Shown: piece by piece, positions 2,317 through 26,998 of the stretch
Layout of the letters: each line of letters begins with the position of its first letter
How positions within the stretch are numbered: the first letter of the stretch is position 1
NCBI RefSeq assembly: GCF_010731295.1
Contig: NZ_AP022579.1
Coordinates: forward strand, 5,704,001 to 5,768,000
Direction: 5' to 3'
Source of the DNA: Mycolicibacterium boenickei
GTDB taxonomy: Bacteria > Actinomycetota > Actinomycetes > Mycobacteriales > Mycobacteriaceae
DNA: 64,000 nt
Position numbers and translations under genes: made by a program
The notes under the pieces: model-generated
Database searches by the model: none
Told to the model about the DNA's origin: nothing
The model's input: only the letters and a program-made list of their open reading frames with translations

Positions 2317-3810
2317 TCAGCCCGGCCGGCGAGACTCCAGCAGCTGCCACGCCCTGAGCGCCAGCCAGAGCTGGGCCCGGGTATCGGCCGATTCCAGGTC
2401 GTCACCCAACAACTGGCAGATGCGTCGCATCCGGTTGCGCATGGTATGGCGATGGACCGCGAGCTCGGCGGCCGCGGCTTCCATCTGGCCGTTGCGTCCG
2501 AGGAACGCAGCCAGCGTCGGGATCAGCTCGTCCCCACCGGCCAGCGCATCCAACGGCGCGGCCAGAACGCGAAGTTCGGCGGCGCTGCGGCCGTCGAGCA
2601 GCACCCCCATCGGGCTGAGCTCGCCGAACTCGCTGAACCGCCCGGCGCCGGAGTGGGCCGCGATGCGGGCCTGCTCCAGAGCCGTCTGCACCTCTGACAG
2701 ACGGCTCGGAAGACTCATCCCGCCGCCGATCGTCAGGCCTGTCTGCCGCTCGAGCTCCTCGACGACGGTGCGGATGCGGCGTCGGCTCCCGGCCGCCGGA
2801 ACCACGATCACGATCTCCTCGCCCGTCGGTGCCATCAGAAACGTGGTCAGCACCCGGCCCAGCACATGCTCGGCCGCCAACAACGGCCCCGCTCCGGTGA
2901 ACGACGCCGCGACTACGTCGCTATCAGGCTCGAAACCGAAGTAGCGCAACACCGCATCGTCGACGCCACCCGACCCGGCGAGCATCTCGCGGGTGACCGC
3001 GATCCGCAGCAGCTGCTCGGCGTCGACCACCCGGGCCGGCTTCTCGATCGCAATCGAGATGAGCGACACCGCATGTGCGACCAGGAGGCGGTCGGCGTTC
3101 GACATCGCGGCGGACGTGCGCACCGCGAGCCGCCCGCGTACCGGCTGGGCGGCACGCAGATTCTGGATCGTGACGTAGGCATCCCCGTCCGCGGTGACAT
3201 GGGCACCGCGCCGGCCCGCGGTGCCGGCTTGCTCGCCGAGCACGGCGATCAGCCGCTCCTGCGCACCGCCTGCGGCCGCCAGCACCGTGGCGTCGGTGTC
3301 GACCACCACCACCGTCGCCGACAGAGCGTCGGCCAGGGCGCCGACCACCCCCGGAATGCCACCACGCAATGTGGCGCGGGCCAGCACCTCCTGAGCGTCG
3401 ACCACGCGCTGCACCGAGCGCAGTTCGTCGGCCCTGAGCGCATCGATCACCACCCGCGCGATCGCGATGAACGGGGTCGACGGCGGCACCTCCAGCACCG
3501 GCAGTCCGAATTCGTCACCGGCTGCCCGCACCGCAGGTGGCACATAGGCGAGCGTGGTGCCGGTGTCGATGGCCAGCGCCGCCGTGCCGGCCGCGGCCAG
3601 GCGCGCGACATAGGCGGATTGCGCGGCGTCGTCGGCACCGATGTTGATGCCCGTCGTCATCACCAACTCACCACCGGCCAGGTACGGCGTCGGATCGCTC
3701 AGTTCGATCGCATGCGCCCAGGAGATCTCGCGGTCGGCGCCGAGCGCCCCGGCCACCACGACAAGGCCTAGGCTGTCGACCTCGGACAGGTCCCGCACCG
3801 TGAGCGCCAC
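2317..3810 (-). CDS. PucR family transcriptional regulator
   Basis: A 497-aa protein starting at GTG 3810. Residues 1-125 form the PucR (purine catabolism regulator-like) sensory domain, with the landmark TPYLAGGELVMTTGI. A GGDEF-like middle region follows, and the C-terminus holds the PucR helix-turn-helix around AAAELAVHRHTMRNRMRRI. PucR proteins are usually metabolite-responsive activators of adjacent catabolic genes, but no obvious catabolic partner is next to it: the upstream neighbour is a divergent 49-aa protein and the downstream neighbour is the acyltransferase. The ligand cannot be predicted. Confidence 0.9.
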   Translation of the reverse strand: MALTVRDLSEVDSLGLVVVAGALGADREISWAHAIELSDPTPYLAGGELVMTTGINIGADDAAQSAYVARLAAAGTAALAIDTGTTLAYVPPAVRAAGDEFGLPVLEVPPSTPFIAIARVVIDALRADELRSVQRVVDAQEVLARATLRGGIPGVVGALADALSATVVVVDTDATVLAAAGGAQERLIAVLGEQAGTAGRRGAHVTADGDAYVTIQNLRAAQPVRGRLAVRTSAAMSNADRLLVAHAVSLISIAIEKPARVVDAEQLLRIAVTREMLAGSGGVDDAVLRYFGFEPDSDVVAASFTGAGPLLAAEHVLGRVLTTFLMAPTGEEIVIVVPAAGSRRRIRTVVEELERQTGLTIGGGMSLPSRLSEVQTALEQARIAAHSGAGRFSEFGELSPMGVLLDGRSAAELRVLAAPLDALAGGDELIPTLAAFLGRNGQMEAAAAELAVHRHTMRNRMRRICQLLGDDLESADTRAQLWLALRAWQLLESRRPG

Positions 3811-5087: not shown

Positions 5088-5381
5088 TCAGTTGAGCAGG
5101 TAAAGGCCTACCGTGCCACCGTCATTCACGGCATAGACGGCTTCACCCGGGCCGGCGCCGGCAGCGTTGGCCGCGGCCACCGCCGACGGAGCGTCGGCGT
5201 GATTGCCGGTCCAGTGCCATGCGCGACCGCCGGTGCCGGTGTGGTTGTCGAATATATAGAGGCCGACGGTCCCGCCGTCGTTGACCTCGAAGATCGCCTC
5301 ACCGGGCCCTGCTCCCGATGCGGTGGCCGCAGCCGCCGCCGATGGTGCGTCCCCGTGATTGCCAGTCCATCTCCAGCTCAT
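5088..5381 (-). CDS. Two-repeat small protein (97 aa), function unknown
   Basis: The start is ATG at 5381, preceded by CAGGAG at 7-8 bp; an upstream extension to 5462 has no such site. The protein is two copies of a 42-residue unit (residues 3-44 and 55-96) joined by a Gly-rich linker. About 32 of 42 positions are identical. Each copy opens with W-x-WTGNHxDAPSA, passes through GAGPGEA and ends VNDGGTVGLY. There is no signal peptide, Cys or obvious catalytic residue. The repeat looks like a small beta-rich binding module, possibly a pseudo-symmetric lectin-like or wall-associated domain, but that is inference. I do not recognise a named family. Confidence 0.8.
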   Translation of the reverse strand: MSWRWTGNHGDAPSAAAAATASGAGPGEAIFEVNDGGTVGLYIFDNHTGTGGRAWHWTGNHADAPSAVAAANAAGAGPGEAVYAVNDGGTVGLYLLN

Positions 5382-5493
5382 GTTGAACTCCTGTGTCGAG
5401 TGCCGATGCGCCCGTGGTCGATGGGCACATCCACTGTCGGCCGCGGTCACGGCGTCGCGCACGCGTAGTGCACTACTCGACTGGGATCCGGAG

Positions 5494-6939
5494 CTAATGC
5501 GTCGGCGTACCGCCCGCGGGACTCGGGCGCGGCGCGGTGAAGAACGCCGCCACCACGGCGATCACGCTGATCATCGCCGCGACCGTGAATGCCGCATGGA
5601 CACCCGGTAGATCCGGGGCCCCGCCCGATTGGGACGCCTTCGTCATGACCGTCACGAACAAGGCGGTTCCGGCCGCGCCCGCAACCTGTTGCAGCGTCGT
5701 CAAGATGGCACTGCCGTGTGAATAGAACCGGTCGGGCAGAACGCCGAGCGCGTCAGTCATCAACGGGGTGAACATCATCGACAGGCCCACCATCATGATC
5801 GTCTGCAGCACAACCAGTTCCCACACGGGAGACGCCGCCGACAGCAGGGTGAATCCCCACAGTGATGCGCACAGCAGCAGCGAACCGGGCACGACGAGCA
5901 CCCTGGCACCGTGCCGGTCATACGCCCGCCCGACCAGCGGACCGGCCAACCCCATCAGCAGCCCACCCGGCAGGGTCGCCAATCCGGCGACCAACGCGCT
6001 CTGCTTCAACACGTCCTGGACGTACAGCGGCACCATGATGATGGCGCCGAACAACCCCATGAACCCGAGGATCACCAGGCCCAGCGACACCGAGAACCGG
6101 CGATACGTGAACGGGCGCAGGTCGAGGAACGCGCGGTCGCGTCGCTGCAGTTGGATCTGCCGCGCACCGAACAGCACCATCGCCACCGCACCCACCGTCA
6201 TCGGCACCCACGCCGGTAGCGACTGCTGACCGTGGGCCGCCTCACCCATCAGCGACAGCCCGAACACCAAGCCCGCGAACGCAACCGCCGAAAGCGGTAC
6301 CGAGACCGGATCGATCGGCGTCGGTTCCTCTCGCTCATCGTCGACGCGCAGCCAGGCCAGACCGGCGCTGAGCGCCACCAGCGCGATGGGCAGCACGATC
6401 CAGAACATCCAGCGCCAGTCGAGCGAGCCCAGGATGAACCCGGACAGCGTGGGACCGATCGCCGGAGCTACCGCGATGACGATCGAGATGGTGCCCATCA
6501 TCTGGCCGCGCCGATCGGCCGGGATCAACGTCATGACCGTCGTCATCAGCAGCGGCATCATCACAGCGGTCCCGCACGCCTGCACGATCCGCCCGACCAG
6601 CAGCACCGCGAACCCCGGGGCCAGCGCGGCGATCAGGGTGCCGGTGCAGAACAACGCCATCGACGCCAGGTAGATGCTCCGTACCGGGTAGCGCTGCAGC
6701 AGCGATCCGGACATCGGGATCACCACGGCCATCGTCAACAGGAAGCCACTGGTCAGCCATTGCGCCGTGCTCGCGGAGATGTCCAGGTCCACGATCAGCG
6801 CGGGCAGTGCCACGCTCATGATCGTCTCGTTGAGGATCATCACGAACGCCGAGCCCACCAGCAGCGCGATGATGACGTTGGCGCTCGCCTGGGTACGCGG
6901 TTGCGTCGCGATCTCCCCCGTGCTCGGGCCCGTACTCAT
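5494..6939 (-). CDS. DHA2-type MFS multidrug exporter
   Basis: A 481-aa membrane protein with about 14 hydrophobic segments, as in the EmrB/QacA (DHA2) drug:H+ antiporters. It has an acidic residue in helix 1 (MILNETIMSVALPAL), motif A-like spacing after helix 2, and the motif C region AVAPAIGPTLSGFIL in helix 5. ATG 6939 has GGGGAGAGG just upstream. It is divergent from a SAM methyltransferase across a 179-bp region containing a palindrome. The transported compound is unknown. Confidence 0.88.
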   Translation of the reverse strand: MSTGPSTGEIATQPRTQASANVIIALLVGSAFVMILNETIMSVALPALIVDLDISASTAQWLTSGFLLTMAVVIPMSGSLLQRYPVRSIYLASMALFCTGTLIAALAPGFAVLLVGRIVQACGTAVMMPLLMTTVMTLIPADRRGQMMGTISIVIAVAPAIGPTLSGFILGSLDWRWMFWIVLPIALVALSAGLAWLRVDDEREEPTPIDPVSVPLSAVAFAGLVFGLSLMGEAAHGQQSLPAWVPMTVGAVAMVLFGARQIQLQRRDRAFLDLRPFTYRRFSVSLGLVILGFMGLFGAIIMVPLYVQDVLKQSALVAGLATLPGGLLMGLAGPLVGRAYDRHGARVLVVPGSLLLCASLWGFTLLSAASPVWELVVLQTIMMVGLSMMFTPLMTDALGVLPDRFYSHGSAILTTLQQVAGAAGTALFVTVMTKASQSGGAPDLPGVHAAFTVAAMISVIAVVAAFFTAPRPSPAGGTPTH

Positions 6940-22614: not shown

Positions 22615-23082
22615 GTGAAACTTCCCGTGGCCACCGAGTGGGCCCTGCACTGCGCGACGTCGCTGGCGCAGCTCGAGCCGGGGACCACCGCGTCGGCCGC
22701 AGATCTCGCCGAGTATTTCGACCTGCCAGCGGCCTATCTCGCCAAGCAACTGCAGGCCCTGACGCGCGCGGGTGTACTGGTCGCGACAACCGGCCCGCGC
22801 GGCGGGTTCCGGCTGGGCCGGGCACCCGCTGACATCACCCTGCTGCAGATCGTCGAGGCGGTCGACGGCGCGTCGCCGCCATACGAGTGCCGCGAGATCC
22901 GCCGGCAGGGTCGCGGCGCCCTGCCCGCCTCGTGGTGCCGCCACGAGTGCATCCTCGCGGTCAAGATGGCTGACGCCCACCAGGCCTGGCGGGCCAGCCT
23001 CGACGGCGTCACACTTGCCGACATCCTCGCCGACATCCCGGCCGCAGCACCGGCCCGCACCCGAAAGTTGTTGGGCAGGTGA
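22615..23082 (+). CDS. Rrf2 family transcriptional regulator
   Basis: A 155-aa protein starting at GTG 22615. The N-terminal winged helix (to ~residue 65) ends with VLVATTGPRGGFRLGR, the Rrf2 wing. The C-terminal part carries Cys residues in YECREI and SWCRHECI, so a redox cluster or thiol switch as in NsrR/IscR is possible, though the spacing between the first and second Cys is long. Divergent from the NmrA-like reductase gene and 3 bp from the convergent lyase gene. Confidence 0.85.
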   Translation: MKLPVATEWALHCATSLAQLEPGTTASAADLAEYFDLPAAYLAKQLQALTRAGVLVATTGPRGGFRLGRAPADITLLQIVEAVDGASPPYECREIRRQGRGALPASWCRHECILAVKMADAHQAWRASLDGVTLADILADIPAAAPARTRKLLGR

Positions 23083-23085
23083 GAC

Positions 23086-23964
23086 TCAGAGCAGGAGCCG
23101 GCCCAATTCCTCGCGGCCGCCGCCGTCGAGCGGCAGCAGCGGCGGACGCGGGTCTCCGACGCCCCGGCCGAGCAGCTCGAGTCCACCCTTGATCGTGGTG
23201 GGCAGGCCGCCCGCCACGATGAACTCCAGGAAGGGCTTGAGCTCGGTGTAGATGGCCTCGGCCTTGGCCCAGTCTCCGGCCTGCGCCGCTGCGTAGAGGT
23301 CCAGGCACGGCTGCGGCAGCAGATTCGGCGCCGCTGTGCACCAGCCCTTGGCCCCAGCCTTGAAAGCCTTGAGAATCATGGGATTACTGCCGTTGTAGAA
23401 CGGCAGCCGGCCGTCGGTGAGCTCGGACAGGCGCTGCATGCGGGTGATGTCCCCGGTGGATTCCTTGACCATGGTGACGTTGTCGATGTCGTCGAACATC
23501 TGGACCAGCAGCTCCGGCCGCATGTCGATACCACTGGTGGCCGGGTTGTTGTACACCATGATCGGAATTCCGATCGCGGCGCCGATCGCCGCGTAGTGCT
23601 GGGCGATCTCCCGTTCGGACAGTTTCCAGTAGGAAATCGGCAGCACCATCACCGCATCCGCACCGGCGCGCTCGGCATACCGCGCCCGGCGAATCGTGTT
23701 GGCAGTGGTGAGATCTGACGCACCGATGATGACGGGAACCCGACGGTCGACCACGCCGATCGTGGTGTCGATGACAGCATCGAACTCGGCCTCGGCGAGA
23801 TAGGCCGACTCGCCGGTGCTGCCCAGCGGGACGATCCCGTGGGCTCCGTCGGTCACCAACCGGTCGACGAGAGCGGCAAGCTTGTCCGTGTCGACCCGCT
23901 GGTCCTCGGTGAAGGGAGTCACGGGATAGGCCAGGATTCCGTGGATCTCAGTGGTGGAGGGCAT
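23086..23964 (-). CDS. DapA/NanA family aldolase-lyase (dihydrodipicolinate synthase-like)
   Basis: A 292-aa TIM-barrel class I aldolase. It has the GSTGES loop near residue 48, YNNPATSG with the catalytic Tyr, and the Schiff-base Lys in MVKESTGD. The surrounding residues differ from biosynthetic DapA, so a catabolic keto-acid lyase or aldolase is more likely. It lies 37 bp downstream of the class II aldolase gene on the same strand and shares its promoter and operator. Confidence 0.85.
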   Translation of the reverse strand: MPSTTEIHGILAYPVTPFTEDQRVDTDKLAALVDRLVTDGAHGIVPLGSTGESAYLAEAEFDAVIDTTIGVVDRRVPVIIGASDLTTANTIRRARYAERAGADAVMVLPISYWKLSEREIAQHYAAIGAAIGIPIMVYNNPATSGIDMRPELLVQMFDDIDNVTMVKESTGDITRMQRLSELTDGRLPFYNGSNPMILKAFKAGAKGWCTAAPNLLPQPCLDLYAAAQAGDWAKAEAIYTELKPFLEFIVAGGLPTTIKGGLELLGRGVGDPRPPLLPLDGGGREELGRLLL

Positions 23965-24001: not shown

Positions 24002-24787
24002 TCAGCTGGTCAATGCGTCGGGATGGTTGCGGAGCGCGCGGCGGGCGTAGTAGGCGAAGTTGGCCTGGCTGCGCTTGGGCCGCAACGTCCAGTCATGGGC
24101 CTCCCGCGCCAGCCGCGGAGGCAGGTCGGCGATCGTTCCCGCGCCCATGGCCGCCAGTTGCAGTTTGGCGCCACGCTCGATCAGCATCGCCAGCGAGCAT
24201 GACTCCTCGATGCTGGCCCCGGCGATCACATGACCGTGGTGAGCCAACAGGATCGCCTTCTTGTCCCCCAGTGCGGCGCTGATGATCTCGCCCTCCTCAT
24301 TGCCGACCGGGACACCCGGCCAGTCAGCCAGGAAGGCGCAGTCGTCATAGAGCGGGGCGATGTCCATCTGCGACACCCGCAAAGGAACTTCCAGCATCGA
24401 GAGCGCGGCGACGTGGAACGGGTGAGTGTGCACGATGCACTGCACATCGGGCCGCGCACGGTAGATCCAGGAATGGAATCGGTTGGCGGGGTTCGCCATT
24501 CCCTCGCCTTCGAGAACGTTGAGATCCTCGTCGACGACCAGCAGATTCTCATCGGTGATCTCGTCGAAGCCCAGGCCGAGCCGCTGGGTGTAGTACGTGC
24601 CCGGCGTCTCGGCCCGCGCTGTGATCTGCCCGGCCAATCCCGAGTCGTGGCCCGCGTCGAACAATGCGCGGCAGGTCAAGGCCAGCTTCTGCCGCGGAGT
24701 CAGCGTCGACTCCGCGATATGGGTCGAAAGCCCATCGAGGGCCCGCTGCATCAGAACCTGCTTCGAATCACCGAGCGTGGTGTTCAT
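24002..24787 (-). CDS. Class II aldolase/adducin family protein
   Basis: A 261-aa protein with the metal-binding His pattern HTHPFH and a later LLAHHGHV, giving the zinc site of L-fuculose-phosphate aldolase-like proteins. The N-terminal GLAGQITAR is the usual nucleotide- or phosphate-binding loop region. It heads a two-gene operon with the DapA-like lyase. A promoter (-35 TTGACT at 24854-24859, -10 TACAGT at 24830-24835) with an operator inside the spacer lies just upstream. Substrate unknown. Confidence 0.88.
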   Translation of the reverse strand: MNTTLGDSKQVLMQRALDGLSTHIAESTLTPRQKLALTCRALFDAGHDSGLAGQITARAETPGTYYTQRLGLGFDEITDENLLVVDEDLNVLEGEGMANPANRFHSWIYRARPDVQCIVHTHPFHVAALSMLEVPLRVSQMDIAPLYDDCAFLADWPGVPVGNEEGEIISAALGDKKAILLAHHGHVIAGASIEESCSLAMLIERGAKLQLAAMGAGTIADLPPRLAREAHDWTLRPKRSQANFAYYARRALRNHPDALTS

Positions 24788-24829
24788 CTCGGCCTACCTT
24801 TCTACATCGAGGGGTCGGCAACACGTCCG

Positions 24830-24859
24830 ACTGTAGGACACCGTGTGTCATCTAGTCAA
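24830..24859 (-). promoter_or_regulatory. Aldolase operon promoter with operator A
   Basis: On the minus strand, -35 TTGACT (24854-24859), an 18-bp spacer and -10 TACAGT (24830-24835). The palindrome TAGGACACnnnGTGTCAT (24834-24851) fills the spacer, so a bound regulator would block RNA polymerase. The same palindrome recurs at 24961-24980 and 25921-25940. Confidence 0.7.
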
Positions 24860-24960
24860 CAGTTTCTTCGACATGCACGAGAATCGCAGCGTCGCCGGCA
24901 TCGGTTCGAGAGCGGCGGCCCCGCCCCTTCACTCCGACGCACAGCCGATCTTGTTTCCTT

Positions 24961-24980
24961 TATGACACTTTGTGTCCTAT
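24961..24980 (+). promoter_or_regulatory. Operator B, upstream of the exported small protein gene
   Basis: ATGACACTTTGTGTCCTA in this orientation is the complement of the TAGGACACnnnGTGTCATA palindrome. It overlaps a plausible -10, TATGAT (24978-24983), of the plus-strand gene that starts at 25026. It is identical in both half-sites to operator A. Confidence 0.65.
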
Positions 24981-25025
24981 GATCGAGACATCTCGATCGA
25001 ACCGTCGAAGAAGGAGTGAGTAGCC

Positions 25026-25325
25026 ATGAAACACATAGCAACGTCCACGGCGTTTTCCATCGGCGCGGTCGCCGCCTGGCTCGCCGCGGGGGCCGCCGTC
25101 GCCGCAGCGGCCCCCACCGGCCCGTCGGCGGCCGAAACCATCGCGCAGCTACAGGCCGATGGCAAGCGGGTGATCATCAACAAGGTCGGCAGCGGTCCGC
25201 TCGGTCAATGCACGGTGACCAATGTCCACACGGTCGTCGTACGCCCGCAAGCGAGGACCGTCACCATCCACGGCCTACCGGATTTCGAACCCATCCCCAC
25301 CGTGCACGTGAACCTCACATGCTGA
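25026..25325 (+). CDS. Small exported hypothetical protein (99 aa)
   Basis: ATG 25026 follows AAGGAG. An N-terminal signal peptide (KHIATSTAFSIGAVAAWLAAGAAVAAAAP) predicts Sec export with cleavage near residue 29. The mature ~70 residues begin PSAAETIAQLQADGKRV and hold two Cys (QC at ~65 and the final C), able to form a disulfide. Similar short exported proteins are common in mycobacteria without assigned function. Operator B lies in its promoter, tying it to the XRE-cupin regulon. Confidence 0.75.
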   Translation: MKHIATSTAFSIGAVAAWLAAGAAVAAAAPTGPSAAETIAQLQADGKRVIINKVGSGPLGQCTVTNVHTVVVRPQARTVTIHGLPDFEPIPTVHVNLTC

Positions 25326-25344
25326 CGGGACACAAGAGCGCGAG

Positions 25345-25875
25345 TCAGCGATTGCGGCCGTACTCGGTGTGGGTGATCACCAGAACCTCACTGGGCGTAC
25401 TCCCCCGCTGACGCAGCTGGTGCGGCAACGAGGCGTCGAAGTACGCGCAGTCGCCGGTCTCGAGGACGATCAAATCGTCCTGGTACCGCAGCTCGACCAC
25501 GCCCGCGTGGACGAACACCAACTCCTGTCCGGCGTGCTCTGGATGCGGATGTTCGGAGAACTTGAGGGTCGGTCGCACGATGAACGGCGACATCGACTTA
25601 CCGAGCATCCCCGCCGCCACGGCTTGATAGCGACTGTTGCCGCGCTCGCCCGCGCGGTCGATCGACAACGTGGTGACCGCCGGGTCCTCGGAAAACAATT
25701 GTGCGACATCGACCTCGAGCGCACGTGCCAGCTTCATCGCCACCGCGATCGACGGTGTGGAACGCTGACGTTCGACCTTGGACAGGTAGCTCTTGGTCAA
25801 CCCGGTTGCCTCGGCGAGCTCCTCAAGCGTCATACCCCGCTGTTGACGCACAGCACGTAACAGAGCGCTCATCAC
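25345..25875 (-). CDS. XRE family regulator with cupin domain
   Basis: A 176-aa protein. Residues 8-62 form a lambda-repressor-type HTH (QRGMTLEELAEATGLTKSYLSKVERQRSTPS). Residues 100-170 form a cupin_2 sensor barrel (HPEHAGQELVFVHAGVVELRYQDDLIVLETGDCAYF). Proteins of this build repress or activate neighbouring catabolic genes in response to a small ligand. A copy of the three-fold repeated palindrome (25921-25940) lies 46 bp upstream of its start, consistent with autoregulation. Confidence 0.88.
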   Translation of the reverse strand: MMSALLRAVRQQRGMTLEELAEATGLTKSYLSKVERQRSTPSIAVAMKLARALEVDVAQLFSEDPAVTTLSIDRAGERGNSRYQAVAAGMLGKSMSPFIVRPTLKFSEHPHPEHAGQELVFVHAGVVELRYQDDLIVLETGDCAYFDASLPHQLRQRGSTPSEVLVITHTEYGRNR

Positions 25876-25920
25876 ACCTCCTGCCCACAGCGAAGAATAC
25901 CCAGTTCGACCAATGGTCCC

Positions 25921-25940
25921 ATAGGACAGCGGGTGTCATA
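25921..25940 (-). promoter_or_regulatory. Operator C, upstream of the XRE-cupin gene
   Basis: ATAGGACAGCGGGTGTCATA differs at one arm position from the consensus of operators A and B (TAGGACACnnnGTGTCATA). It is 46 bp before the XRE-cupin start on the minus strand and downstream of the acyl-CoA dehydrogenase pair. Most likely an autoregulatory site. Confidence 0.65.
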
Positions 25941-25984
25941 TGGTCGACATTCCGTCCGGCCGCACGATCTCCAGGGTTCGCGAA

Positions 25985-26998
25985 CTACTCGCCGGCGCCA
26001 GTGACCAACGCCCACAAGCCTTCCGCCCCGGCACCGGTGGCGTAGTCGGTGAGGACCTCATCCCAGTGCGCAACCGAGCCGTACTCCGAACGCCAGGACA
26101 ACGCAGGCATGGTGAACTCGTGCAGCCGGTGCTCGAGCGTGGTGCCGATCGCACCGTGGACCTGATGAGCGTTGCGCACCACCACCGAGGTTGCGTGCCC
26201 CACGCACGAACGTGCCACGGCGACAAGGAAATCCAGGTGCGGCGACGACCAGTCCGATCGCAACGCCTCGGCCAGCGCCCCATCGGTGGCCGCCCGGGCC
26301 AGCGCCGACTCGGCGGCGATGTCCGCCACCAGATTCTGCACGGCCTGGAACTTGGCCAGCGGTCGGCCGAACTGGGTGCGTTCGCGGGTGTGCGCCACCG
26401 ACGACTCCAGAATCCGGTCCAGCGCCGCGCACACCTGAACGGCACGAACCAGAGCGGCACGGTGCGCGAACTGGGCGATCACGTGGTCGGACACCGGGGT
26501 CCCGGACAGCGCTGCGAGGTCTGCCCGGACATCGTCGCGCGGCTCCCCCGCGTTGTTGCGCCCCGCGCTCACCGACAGCGACGCGGTGTCCACATCGGCC
26601 ACGCGGTGGCCGGTGCCGTCGCGCCAGAGCAGCACCACCCGCTCGGAGTCAGCGGCCCACGGCACACCCCGGGCGACACCGGCGTCGTCGAGCAGACAGG
26701 CGGTGCGGCGCTTGCCGTCCACCTCCAGCCCCGCCGTCTCCAACAGCCAGCAGGCCAGCAGATCATGTTCGGCCAACGGGATTTTCACCCCGTGCCAGGC
26801 CGCGGCGCGCAGCAGCTCGACCGCCTCGGGCCAGCCGGCGCCACTGCCGCCGGACGCCTCGGAGCCGGTGAGCCGCACCAGGCCGAGTTCGTCGAGCCGA
26901 TCCCACAATTCGGCGGTGGCGTCACCGGGCGCGTGCCGCTCGCGGTGCGCGGCGAAGACCGCCGACATCATCTCGACCAGTTCGGTGTCGACACTCAT
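25985..26998 (-). CDS. Acyl-CoA dehydrogenase family protein
   Basis: A 337-aa ACAD that is shorter than the classical ~380 aa. The C-terminal half is well conserved (ERTQFGRPLAKFQAVQNLVADIA, then VHGAIGTTLEHRLHE, where Glu may be the base). The N-terminal FAD-binding half is degenerate. It overlaps the upstream ACAD gene by 4 bp (ATGA). Such unequal pairs often form alpha2-beta2 enzymes, as in mycobacterial steroid ChsE-type dehydrogenases. Substrate unknown. Confidence 0.82.
   Translation of the reverse strand: MSVDTELVEMMSAVFAAHRERHAPGDATAELWDRLDELGLVRLTGSEASGGSGAGWPEAVELLRAAAWHGVKIPLAEHDLLACWLLETAGLEVDGKRRTACLLDDAGVARGVPWAADSERVVLLWRDGTGHRVADVDTASLSVSAGRNNAGEPRDDVRADLAALSGTPVSDHVIAQFAHRAALVRAVQVCAALDRILESSVAHTRERTQFGRPLAKFQAVQNLVADIAAESALARAATDGALAEALRSDWSSPHLDFLVAVARSCVGHATSVVVRNAHQVHGAIGTTLEHRLHEFTMPALSWRSEYGSVAHWDEVLTDYATGAGAEGLWALVTGAGE

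Follow-up and report, generated by a model that had tools for sequence, protein, structure and literature searches.

An XRE-cupin regulator with three predicted operators beside a POD-type operon in a mycobacterium: a probable ErfA-type local repressor

Three copies of one short palindrome stand in front of three neighbouring transcription units of a mycobacterial genome, including the gene for a regulator of the XRE-cupin type. Which protein reads these sites, does it repress or activate, and what may be the task of the enzymes that it controls? The original prediction proposed direct repression and autoregulation by the XRE-cupin protein and left the function of the regulon without a name. 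Here, the window is the whole analysed stretch of 64,000 nucleotides (positions 5704001-5768000 of contig C1 in the 6.59 Mb genome G000). The explanation that fits best overall, with a probability of about 0.8, is a local autoregulating XRE-cupin repressor of an oxime-type operon. The features relevant to this question are given below in window coordinates; POD denotes pyruvic oxime dioxygenase.

22615-23082: gene of an Rrf2-family regulator; orientation convergent to the POD-DapA operon, divergent to an NmrA-like SDR gene
23086..23964, minus strand: DapA-superfamily gene, homologue of PA0223/3NA8 (3na8 match); second gene of the operon
24002..24787, minus strand: "class II aldolase" gene, a POD homologue of the PRK07090 family (NCBIfam, structure match, active-site residues)
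24820..24824, minus strand: degenerate half-site GTGTT of the POD promoter, read from the window sequence
24830..24859, minus strand: predicted POD-operon promoter, with -35 TTGACT (24859-24854), an 18-bp spacer and -10 TACAGT (24835-24830)
24834..24852, minus strand: operator 1, GATGACACACGGTGTCCTA as read toward the POD gene, filling the spacer of the POD-operon promoter
24961..24979, plus strand: operator 2, TATGACACTTTGTGTCCTA, overlapping the -10 TATGAT (24978-24983) of the small protein gene
25026..25325, plus strand: small protein gene (99 aa), with an N-terminus judged by eye to be signal-peptide-like
25345..25875, minus strand: XRE-cupin regulator gene with a GTG start; an alternative ATG start at 25872 is possible
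25922..25940, minus strand: operator 3, TATGACACCCGCTGTCCTA, upstream of the regulator gene; in-register -10 TATGGG (25923-25918), weak

The regulator, which shares 99% identity with its counterpart in Mycolicibacterium porcinum (L049), has the composition of an XRE-cupin protein: an N-terminal Cro/C1-type HTH (HTH_3, residues 6-59) is followed by a C-terminal Cupin_2 domain (residues 108-167, GTG numbering), and palindromic operators are present in promoters adjoining its own gene. This architecture is also backed by a predicted model and a fold match, and the cupin residues H114/E118/H152 (GTG numbering) are invariant in 82/82 distinct homologues. No XRE-cupin chain was named with a ligand among the matches listed in the fold comparison (at most 50). 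A reading of the regulator as part of a defence system is unsupported, its 17 PADLOC matches covering just the HTH part; the POD and small proteins have no PADLOC matches. The small gene has its place between the regulator and POD genes, with separate operators, in the window as in several close relatives. Judged by eye, its product looks exported; it has no Pfam or NCBIfam match and no obvious fit with an oxime theme, which counts against the main reading.

The operator and its place in the promoters

The three 19-bp palindromes share the symmetric consensus TAKGACACNNNGTGTCMTA. They were originally placed at 24834-24851, 24961-24980 and 25921-25940; the sites stand, and their exact ends were off by one base. 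When the window was scanned at up to three mismatches, six strand-matches (three sites on both strands) were obtained against 0.11 expected, and none of 100 shuffles attained this number, which bears out the assumption that such clustering is unlikely by chance. Moreover, at one mismatch or fewer the consensus occurs at just three places of the whole 6.59 Mb genome, all at this locus and all in predicted promoters. Two further places appear at two mismatches: L004 falls within long coding frames, and L005 has no long coding frame across it in a quick scan. At three mismatches there are 16 matches to the operator pattern and 34 to its reversed control. The operator pattern is the rarer one, so the matches beyond the three sites look like background. 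An operator with a 2-bp centre was not found in this genome at up to two mismatches. A version of the core with a 4-base centre was dropped, its frequency being at chance level.

Each operator lies within a predicted promoter spacer, and its terminal TA begins the -10 hexamer, which agrees with the earlier placement of the sites in the POD-operon spacer, across the -10 of the small gene and 5' of the XRE-cupin gene. The POD-operon promoter (TTGACT-18-TACAGT) is the sole sigma-70-like match in 24700-26050, where 0.3 are expected from shuffles. In the small gene promoter, TATGAT starts at the last TA of operator 2 and the -35 is weak; the near end of operator 3 is 47 bases 5' of the regulator GTG start. 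The weakness of the promoter hexamers of the small and regulator genes counts against the main reading.

The same geometry recurs in relatives, where identical sequences were counted once. The core arm columns 4-8 and 12-16 are conserved at 89-100%, except for 73% at one column in the regulator promoters, and most flanking columns are conserved at just 30-50%. TAnnnT follows the operator in the same register at 58 of the 75 distinct POD promoters, and columns 6 to 2 before the POD operator read T67 T57 G62 A66 C66 per cent in 61 distinct contexts (defined as operators within 200 bp 5' of POD, second sites among them). In addition, a half-site GTGTC occurs 13-15 bases after the last TA of the operator in 54/75 distinct POD promoters, all other offsets tested giving 0 or 1. 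At offset 13 it is 19 bp from the right arm of the operator, just under two helical turns, and near the expected transcription start; it is possible that this half-site serves as a second contact for the regulator. The window half-site GTGTT departs from this sequence at one base and lies two positions off. Downstream of the regulator and small-gene operators, no comparable run of conserved columns was found.

Conservation of the operator with the regulator and POD genes

We analysed 401 genomes of the window's family, calling the regulator at E <=1e-30 and POD at E <=1e-60 (first-look candidates were scored in part, 8 and 6 per genome, respectively). The regulator is present in 46 genomes, each of which is also among the 48 with a POD homologue, and the POD gene adjoins the regulator in every one of the 46 loci. 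The two genes are divergent in 40/46, as a rule with the operator between them, and a DapA-like signal on the same strand was detected in 45/46, the remaining locus ending inside POD.

The comparison with orthologous loci, proposed at the outset as a check, places the operator at the regulator or POD gene in 46/46 genomes, with no mismatch in 18, one in 20, two in 3 and three in 1. In the remaining four loci, all from genus g46 (L183, L186, L187, L188), the operator was found by eye as TAGGACACAAGTGTCCTA and alike; these loci score 5-7 mismatches because the operator centre is 2 bp instead of 3, and this spacer change coincides with the regulator of one genus. The exact motif occurs in 18/401 genomes, all of which carry the regulator, so that none of the 355 genomes without a regulator has it; the reversed control occurs in 1/401. 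The POD-only genomes G046 and G065 have no site at up to four mismatches in the 7-7.5 kb read, and one of these two (L190) has a 30%-identical relative of the regulator about 2 kb away. Beyond 200 bp upstream of the regulator and POD genes, there is one site (up to two mismatches) in 142,000 positions, and this lone site has the position of the small-gene operator in sister loci.

From 36 named loci, 32 (L049-L080) were kept and L081-L084 were dropped as weak or partial relatives. A site at up to two mismatches is present in 31/32 and a POD gene is nearby in 26/32. The loci without POD are L053 (contig end), L062, Ralstonia L075, L076 and L078, and L079. The Ralstonia loci, which keep the operator with no POD gene in the stretch, and L079 (a MAG of Pseudonocardia, regulator 46%), which has neither POD nor site, count against the reading given above.

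One protein search had 848 matches, of which 120 were listed. Twelve plasmid loci were fetched from 28 POD and 114 regulator records. Seven of them carry a regulator homologue together with POD, and in five of the seven (Rhodococcus L131 and L132, Burkholderia L134 and L135, Paraburkholderia L136) a site lies within 130 bp upstream of POD. In Cupriavidus metallidurans L139, the operator (3081-3099) is just 5' of a MOSC gene (2539-3063, minus strand) and not at POD. Variovorax L138 (regulator 40%, POD present) and Prescottella L141 (regulator 44%, no POD) have no site, and both count against the main reading. POD loci with no regulator in the stretch (L133, L137, L140, L142) have a site near POD in 0/4 cases; a single match with three mismatches in L137 is 3.8 kb away.

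Co-occurrence of regulator and site across genera, the spacer change and the promoter geometry make it highly probable that the operator and its targets belong to the XRE-cupin regulator, as was originally predicted. Judging from the sequence comparisons, its autoregulation is likewise well supported, and we infer that the XRE-cupin protein binds the palindrome.

Two observations on individual taxa may be added. The 2-bp centre of the g46 operator is a natural variant suited to asking how the dimer reads spacing. Mycolicibacterium frederiksbergense has two copies of the regulator (L062, L080), of which the L062 copy has no nearby POD; a site with one mismatch at L062 7648-7666 lies between two apparently convergent genes and is not promoter-like.

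The enzymes and the probable function of the regulon

The statement that the function of the regulon is unknown can now be improved, since the "aldolase" is a POD homologue and the gene set matches that of ErfA with PA0224-PA0223. The first protein of the operon scores 466 bits with NCBIfam NF005484 (PRK07090; cut-off 261) and belongs to Pfam Aldolase_II. Its nearest solved structures are 8il8, 8ix6 and 8iqa at 259-265 bits, the next chain having 94 bits. We take 8ix6 and 8iqa to be Bradyrhizobium POD and truncated AfPOD, which fits the content of PMC11841055. 8IL8 is the POD of Alcaligenes faecalis (PMC11841055), and homology to it spans residues 2-251.

With identical sequences counted once, the residues H119, H121, H183, Q53, F103, H104, E164 and K8 (AfPOD numbering) are conserved in 83-84 of the 84 readable homologues, Lys8 in all 84. 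The window protein thus shares with the A. faecalis (8IL8) and Bradyrhizobium PODs the Fe(II)-binding triad His119/His121/His183, Gln53, Phe103, His104 and Glu164, and the N-terminal Lys8. The Met19 position is M in 40 homologues, L in 41 (including the window) and F in 3. The pocket mouth is different: F69, Y233 and I239 of AfPOD are replaced by L in 81/84, W in 82 and R in 81, respectively. In the window these are L70, W233 and R239, of which only 233 is kept in kind; the hydrophobic pocket mouth of POD is not retained as such, so we filed the protein as a POD homologue rather than as POD. As its pocket mouth is changed, another oxime or another reaction is possible. By its sequence, the window protein is a member of a distinct POD subfamily with an altered pocket mouth, and the chances that the first enzyme of the operon has POD-type chemistry appear evenly balanced.

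The POD of Nocardia niigatensis L072 (about 5098-5878) was dropped from these counts: its frame met a stop, though tblastn covers most of the gene, which may reflect a disrupted gene, a sequencing artefact or the choice of frame.

Putative PODs include PA0224 (46.9%) and M. liflandii MULP_00998 (49.2%), actinobacterial PODs were placed next to that of P. aeruginosa, and nitrite formation by P. aeruginosa is reported from acetaldoxime, not from pyruvic oxime (PMC5216522). This report and the changed pocket mouth count against POD activity in this subfamily. The pod cluster of A. faecalis includes GST-type, transporter and acetyltransferase genes (PMC8629993), whereas the POD homologue of the window has a DapA-like partner. 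This second operon gene belongs to the DHDPS superfamily and gives 350 bits with 3na8, the next chain having 156 bits. A DapA function was rejected for it, its score being under the TIGR00674 equivalog cut-off (183.4 vs 206.15 bits); 3NA8 is PA0223, which is reported to have no DapA activity in vitro (PMC3281039).

The same gene set, a POD-family gene followed by a PA0223-type DapA-like gene and adjoining the regulator, is apparently found at ErfA (PA0225). This XRE-cupin inhibitor acts mainly, and in a conserved manner, on the adjacent metabolic operon ergAB (PMC7901475); by locus numbers, ergAB should correspond to PA0224-PA0223. The ErfA site at exlBA is ACAACACTTTGTGTCAA (PMC13001255). Its 12-base core ACACTTTGTGTC coincides with 12/12 central positions of the window site 24961-24979, the one ErfA site compared differing from it in the outer bases. 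An XRE-cupin gene beside a POD-family "aldolase" gene and a DapA-like gene, as well as the core, are common to both systems (PMC5216522, PMC3281039, PMC13001255), whereas the window is mycobacterial, has three separate operators (those of the small protein and regulator genes included) and lacks exlBA. The proposed orthology to ErfA is based on gene order taken from papers and on the common core of the site.

Within the XRE-cupin family of P. aeruginosa (PsdR, PauR, PA0535, PA1359, PA1884, PA4987), the domains, the palindromic site where known, the mostly few local targets and the core-promoter position are the same as here, whereas motifs and metabolites are different; the three known consensus sites (ErfA, PsdR, PauR) are quite unlike one another (PMC7901475). 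We suggest that the window regulator is of a known kind, the ErfA-type local regulator, and that the new points are the likely identity of the regulated enzyme and the conservation of the operator across two phyla. A link between ErfA and POD was not found in the literature searched, the coverage of which was partial, so that it may already be in print. The available parts of the ErfA and PA0223/PA0224 papers contain no mention of oximes, the POD literature found contains neither ErfA nor XRE, and we found no publication joining XRE-cupin, class II aldolase and dihydrodipicolinate synthase in Mycobacterium.

Genes that recur beside the regulator and POD genes are also informative. YiiM-like MOSC genes directly follow POD-DapA in Burkholderia L134 and L135, and one comes after POD-DapA in L044, which belongs to the same genus as the window (41% to the protein of Ralstonia); such a gene is present in the POD cluster of Variovorax L138, and three Ralstonia loci have one about 0.7 kb from the regulator gene, the operator sitting at the regulator and not near the MOSC start. 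The L078 and L135 proteins give 135 bits with Pfam MOSC, and those of L138 and L078 match the 6-hydroxyaminopurine reductase model under its cut-off; the L139 protein is of another, weaker type (37.5 bits). The MOSC enzyme mARC is a reductase of N-hydroxylated compounds, oximes and hydroxylamines among them, and reactions of this type are also carried out by YiiM and YcbX (PMC10637980). Genes for such reductases thus lie near POD or the regulator in Burkholderia, Variovorax, Ralstonia and a relative from the window's genus, whereas the window's regulon contains none. Eight loci, of which L041 and L051 come from the same genome, carry a C-N hydrolase gene. M. peregrinum and other close relatives have it between the regulator gene and POD, whereas in Nocardia niigatensis L072 it lies beyond the regulator. 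In M. peregrinum L051 an operator is between the C-N hydrolase gene and POD. The window's genome offers no clear counterpart of this hydrolase (best E 1.6e-4, 28% identity), the gene of which in sister species occupies the interval from the small gene to POD.

The same operator and regulator could also serve ordinary carbon catabolism, a true class II aldolase and a DapA-type aldolase splitting a sugar acid or an amino-acid-derived keto acid, with a sugar acid or amino acid as inducer. The family annotations (Aldolase_II, DHDPS) agree with this, and the clade-wide changes of the pocket mouth allow another substrate. However, the three best solved relatives are all POD chains, far ahead of the next one; the POD-typical K8, Q53, H104 and E164, located outside the generic metal triad, are conserved; and MOSC N-reductase genes recur beside the POD homologue. 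In addition, recombinant members of the POD clade, which may or may not include this subfamily, are reported as active (PMC11841055). We regard carbon catabolism as a serious, though not the favoured, possibility. Most likely, the operon handles oximes or related N-oxygenated compounds.

The mode of control and its alternatives

In the proposed mechanism, the XRE-cupin protein would act as a local, dimeric, autoregulating repressor, binding the palindrome in the -35/-10 spacer of three promoters (those of the POD-DapA operon, the small protein gene and its own gene). Overlapping the start of the -10, the bound repressor would exclude RNA polymerase, until binding of a small inducer to the cupin domain ends this exclusion; dimerisation and induction are presumed here. 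The first enzyme, a homologue of the POD-family Fe(II) dioxygenases, the characterised relative of which converts oxime and O2 into carbonyl and nitrite, may release a carbonyl compound, and the PA0223-type DapA-superfamily protein may act on it. That the inducer is oxime-like is a tentative suggestion.

Since the operator position would block RNA polymerase, we infer repression, and this sign of control is probable by analogy with the characterised Pseudomonas family. All seven XRE-cupin factors of P. aeruginosa with determined regulons are inhibitors, the eighth, PA2312, having given no data, and they bind next to their own genes (PMC7901475). Activation, or different action at each promoter (repression of the regulator's own gene and activation of the POD operon), could be supposed from the extra architecture that the second GTGTC half-site gives to 54/75 distinct POD promoters. 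The blocking position at all three predicted promoters and the uniform inhibition in P. aeruginosa speak against it, and we consider it unlikely.

If the palindrome were the site of another regulator, the XRE-cupin gene would be one of its targets, and an Rrf2-family gene (22615-23082) is indeed present in the same region of the window and of close relatives. Its protein has weak NsrR/IscR-type scores under the cut-offs. However, among the 40 loci L041-L080 this gene was seen in just 11, each a close relative whose regulator shares 90% identity or more with that of the window; the shorter loci end before it. The operator, on the contrary, accompanies the XRE gene in every one of the 46 family genomes as well as in Nocardia, Rhodococcus, Burkholderia and Ralstonia. 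Moreover, the change of the spacer from 3 to 2 bp coincides with the XRE-cupin regulator of one genus, and binding beside the own gene is the norm of the XRE-cupin family (PMC7901475). Such a role of the Rrf2-family protein is therefore very improbable. One could also suppose that the three sites have clustered by chance or belong to a repeated element of no regulatory meaning, as short palindromes do arise by chance and the looser 4-base-centre core is at chance level. This reading is refuted by the comparative data (operator kept at the regulator in 46/46 genomes), together with the excess over 0.11 expected strand-matches and the uniqueness in the genome, and has a negligible probability.

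An autoregulating repressor of an oxime-type operon would also have a broader meaning. What ErfA, which represses the ExlA toxin operon, responds to is described as unknown (PMC13001255), as is the regulatory system of the pod cluster in the nitrifier A. faecalis (PMC8629993). An operator, regulator and POD-type gene common to actinobacteria and proteobacteria bring these problems together and point to a few candidate inducers, namely oximes and hydroxylamine adducts. One can suggest, with considerable reservation, that the ErfA-type repressors represent a cross-phylum stress or nutrient switch for oximes and N-oxygenated compounds derived from hydroxylamine. In this switch the invariant His-x3-Glu...His metal triad of the cupin would detect a chelating ligand resembling an oxime, whereupon a POD-type dioxygenase and, elsewhere, MOSC N-reductases and C-N hydrolases would be released. 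If true, this would put a name to the signal of ErfA in its repression of the ExlA toxin genes of P. aeruginosa. With the POD homologue, a possible oxime-to-nitrite chemistry also reaches rapidly growing mycobacteria.

The leader of the small protein gene has an element of its own. A perfect palindrome, GATCGAGACATCTCGATC, with 8-bp arms and a 2-base centre is located at 24981-24998, starting inside the -10 of this gene and extending into the leader. It is possibly a second control element or a leader hairpin; it is absent from M. peregrinum L051 and nearly kept in M. porcinum L049.
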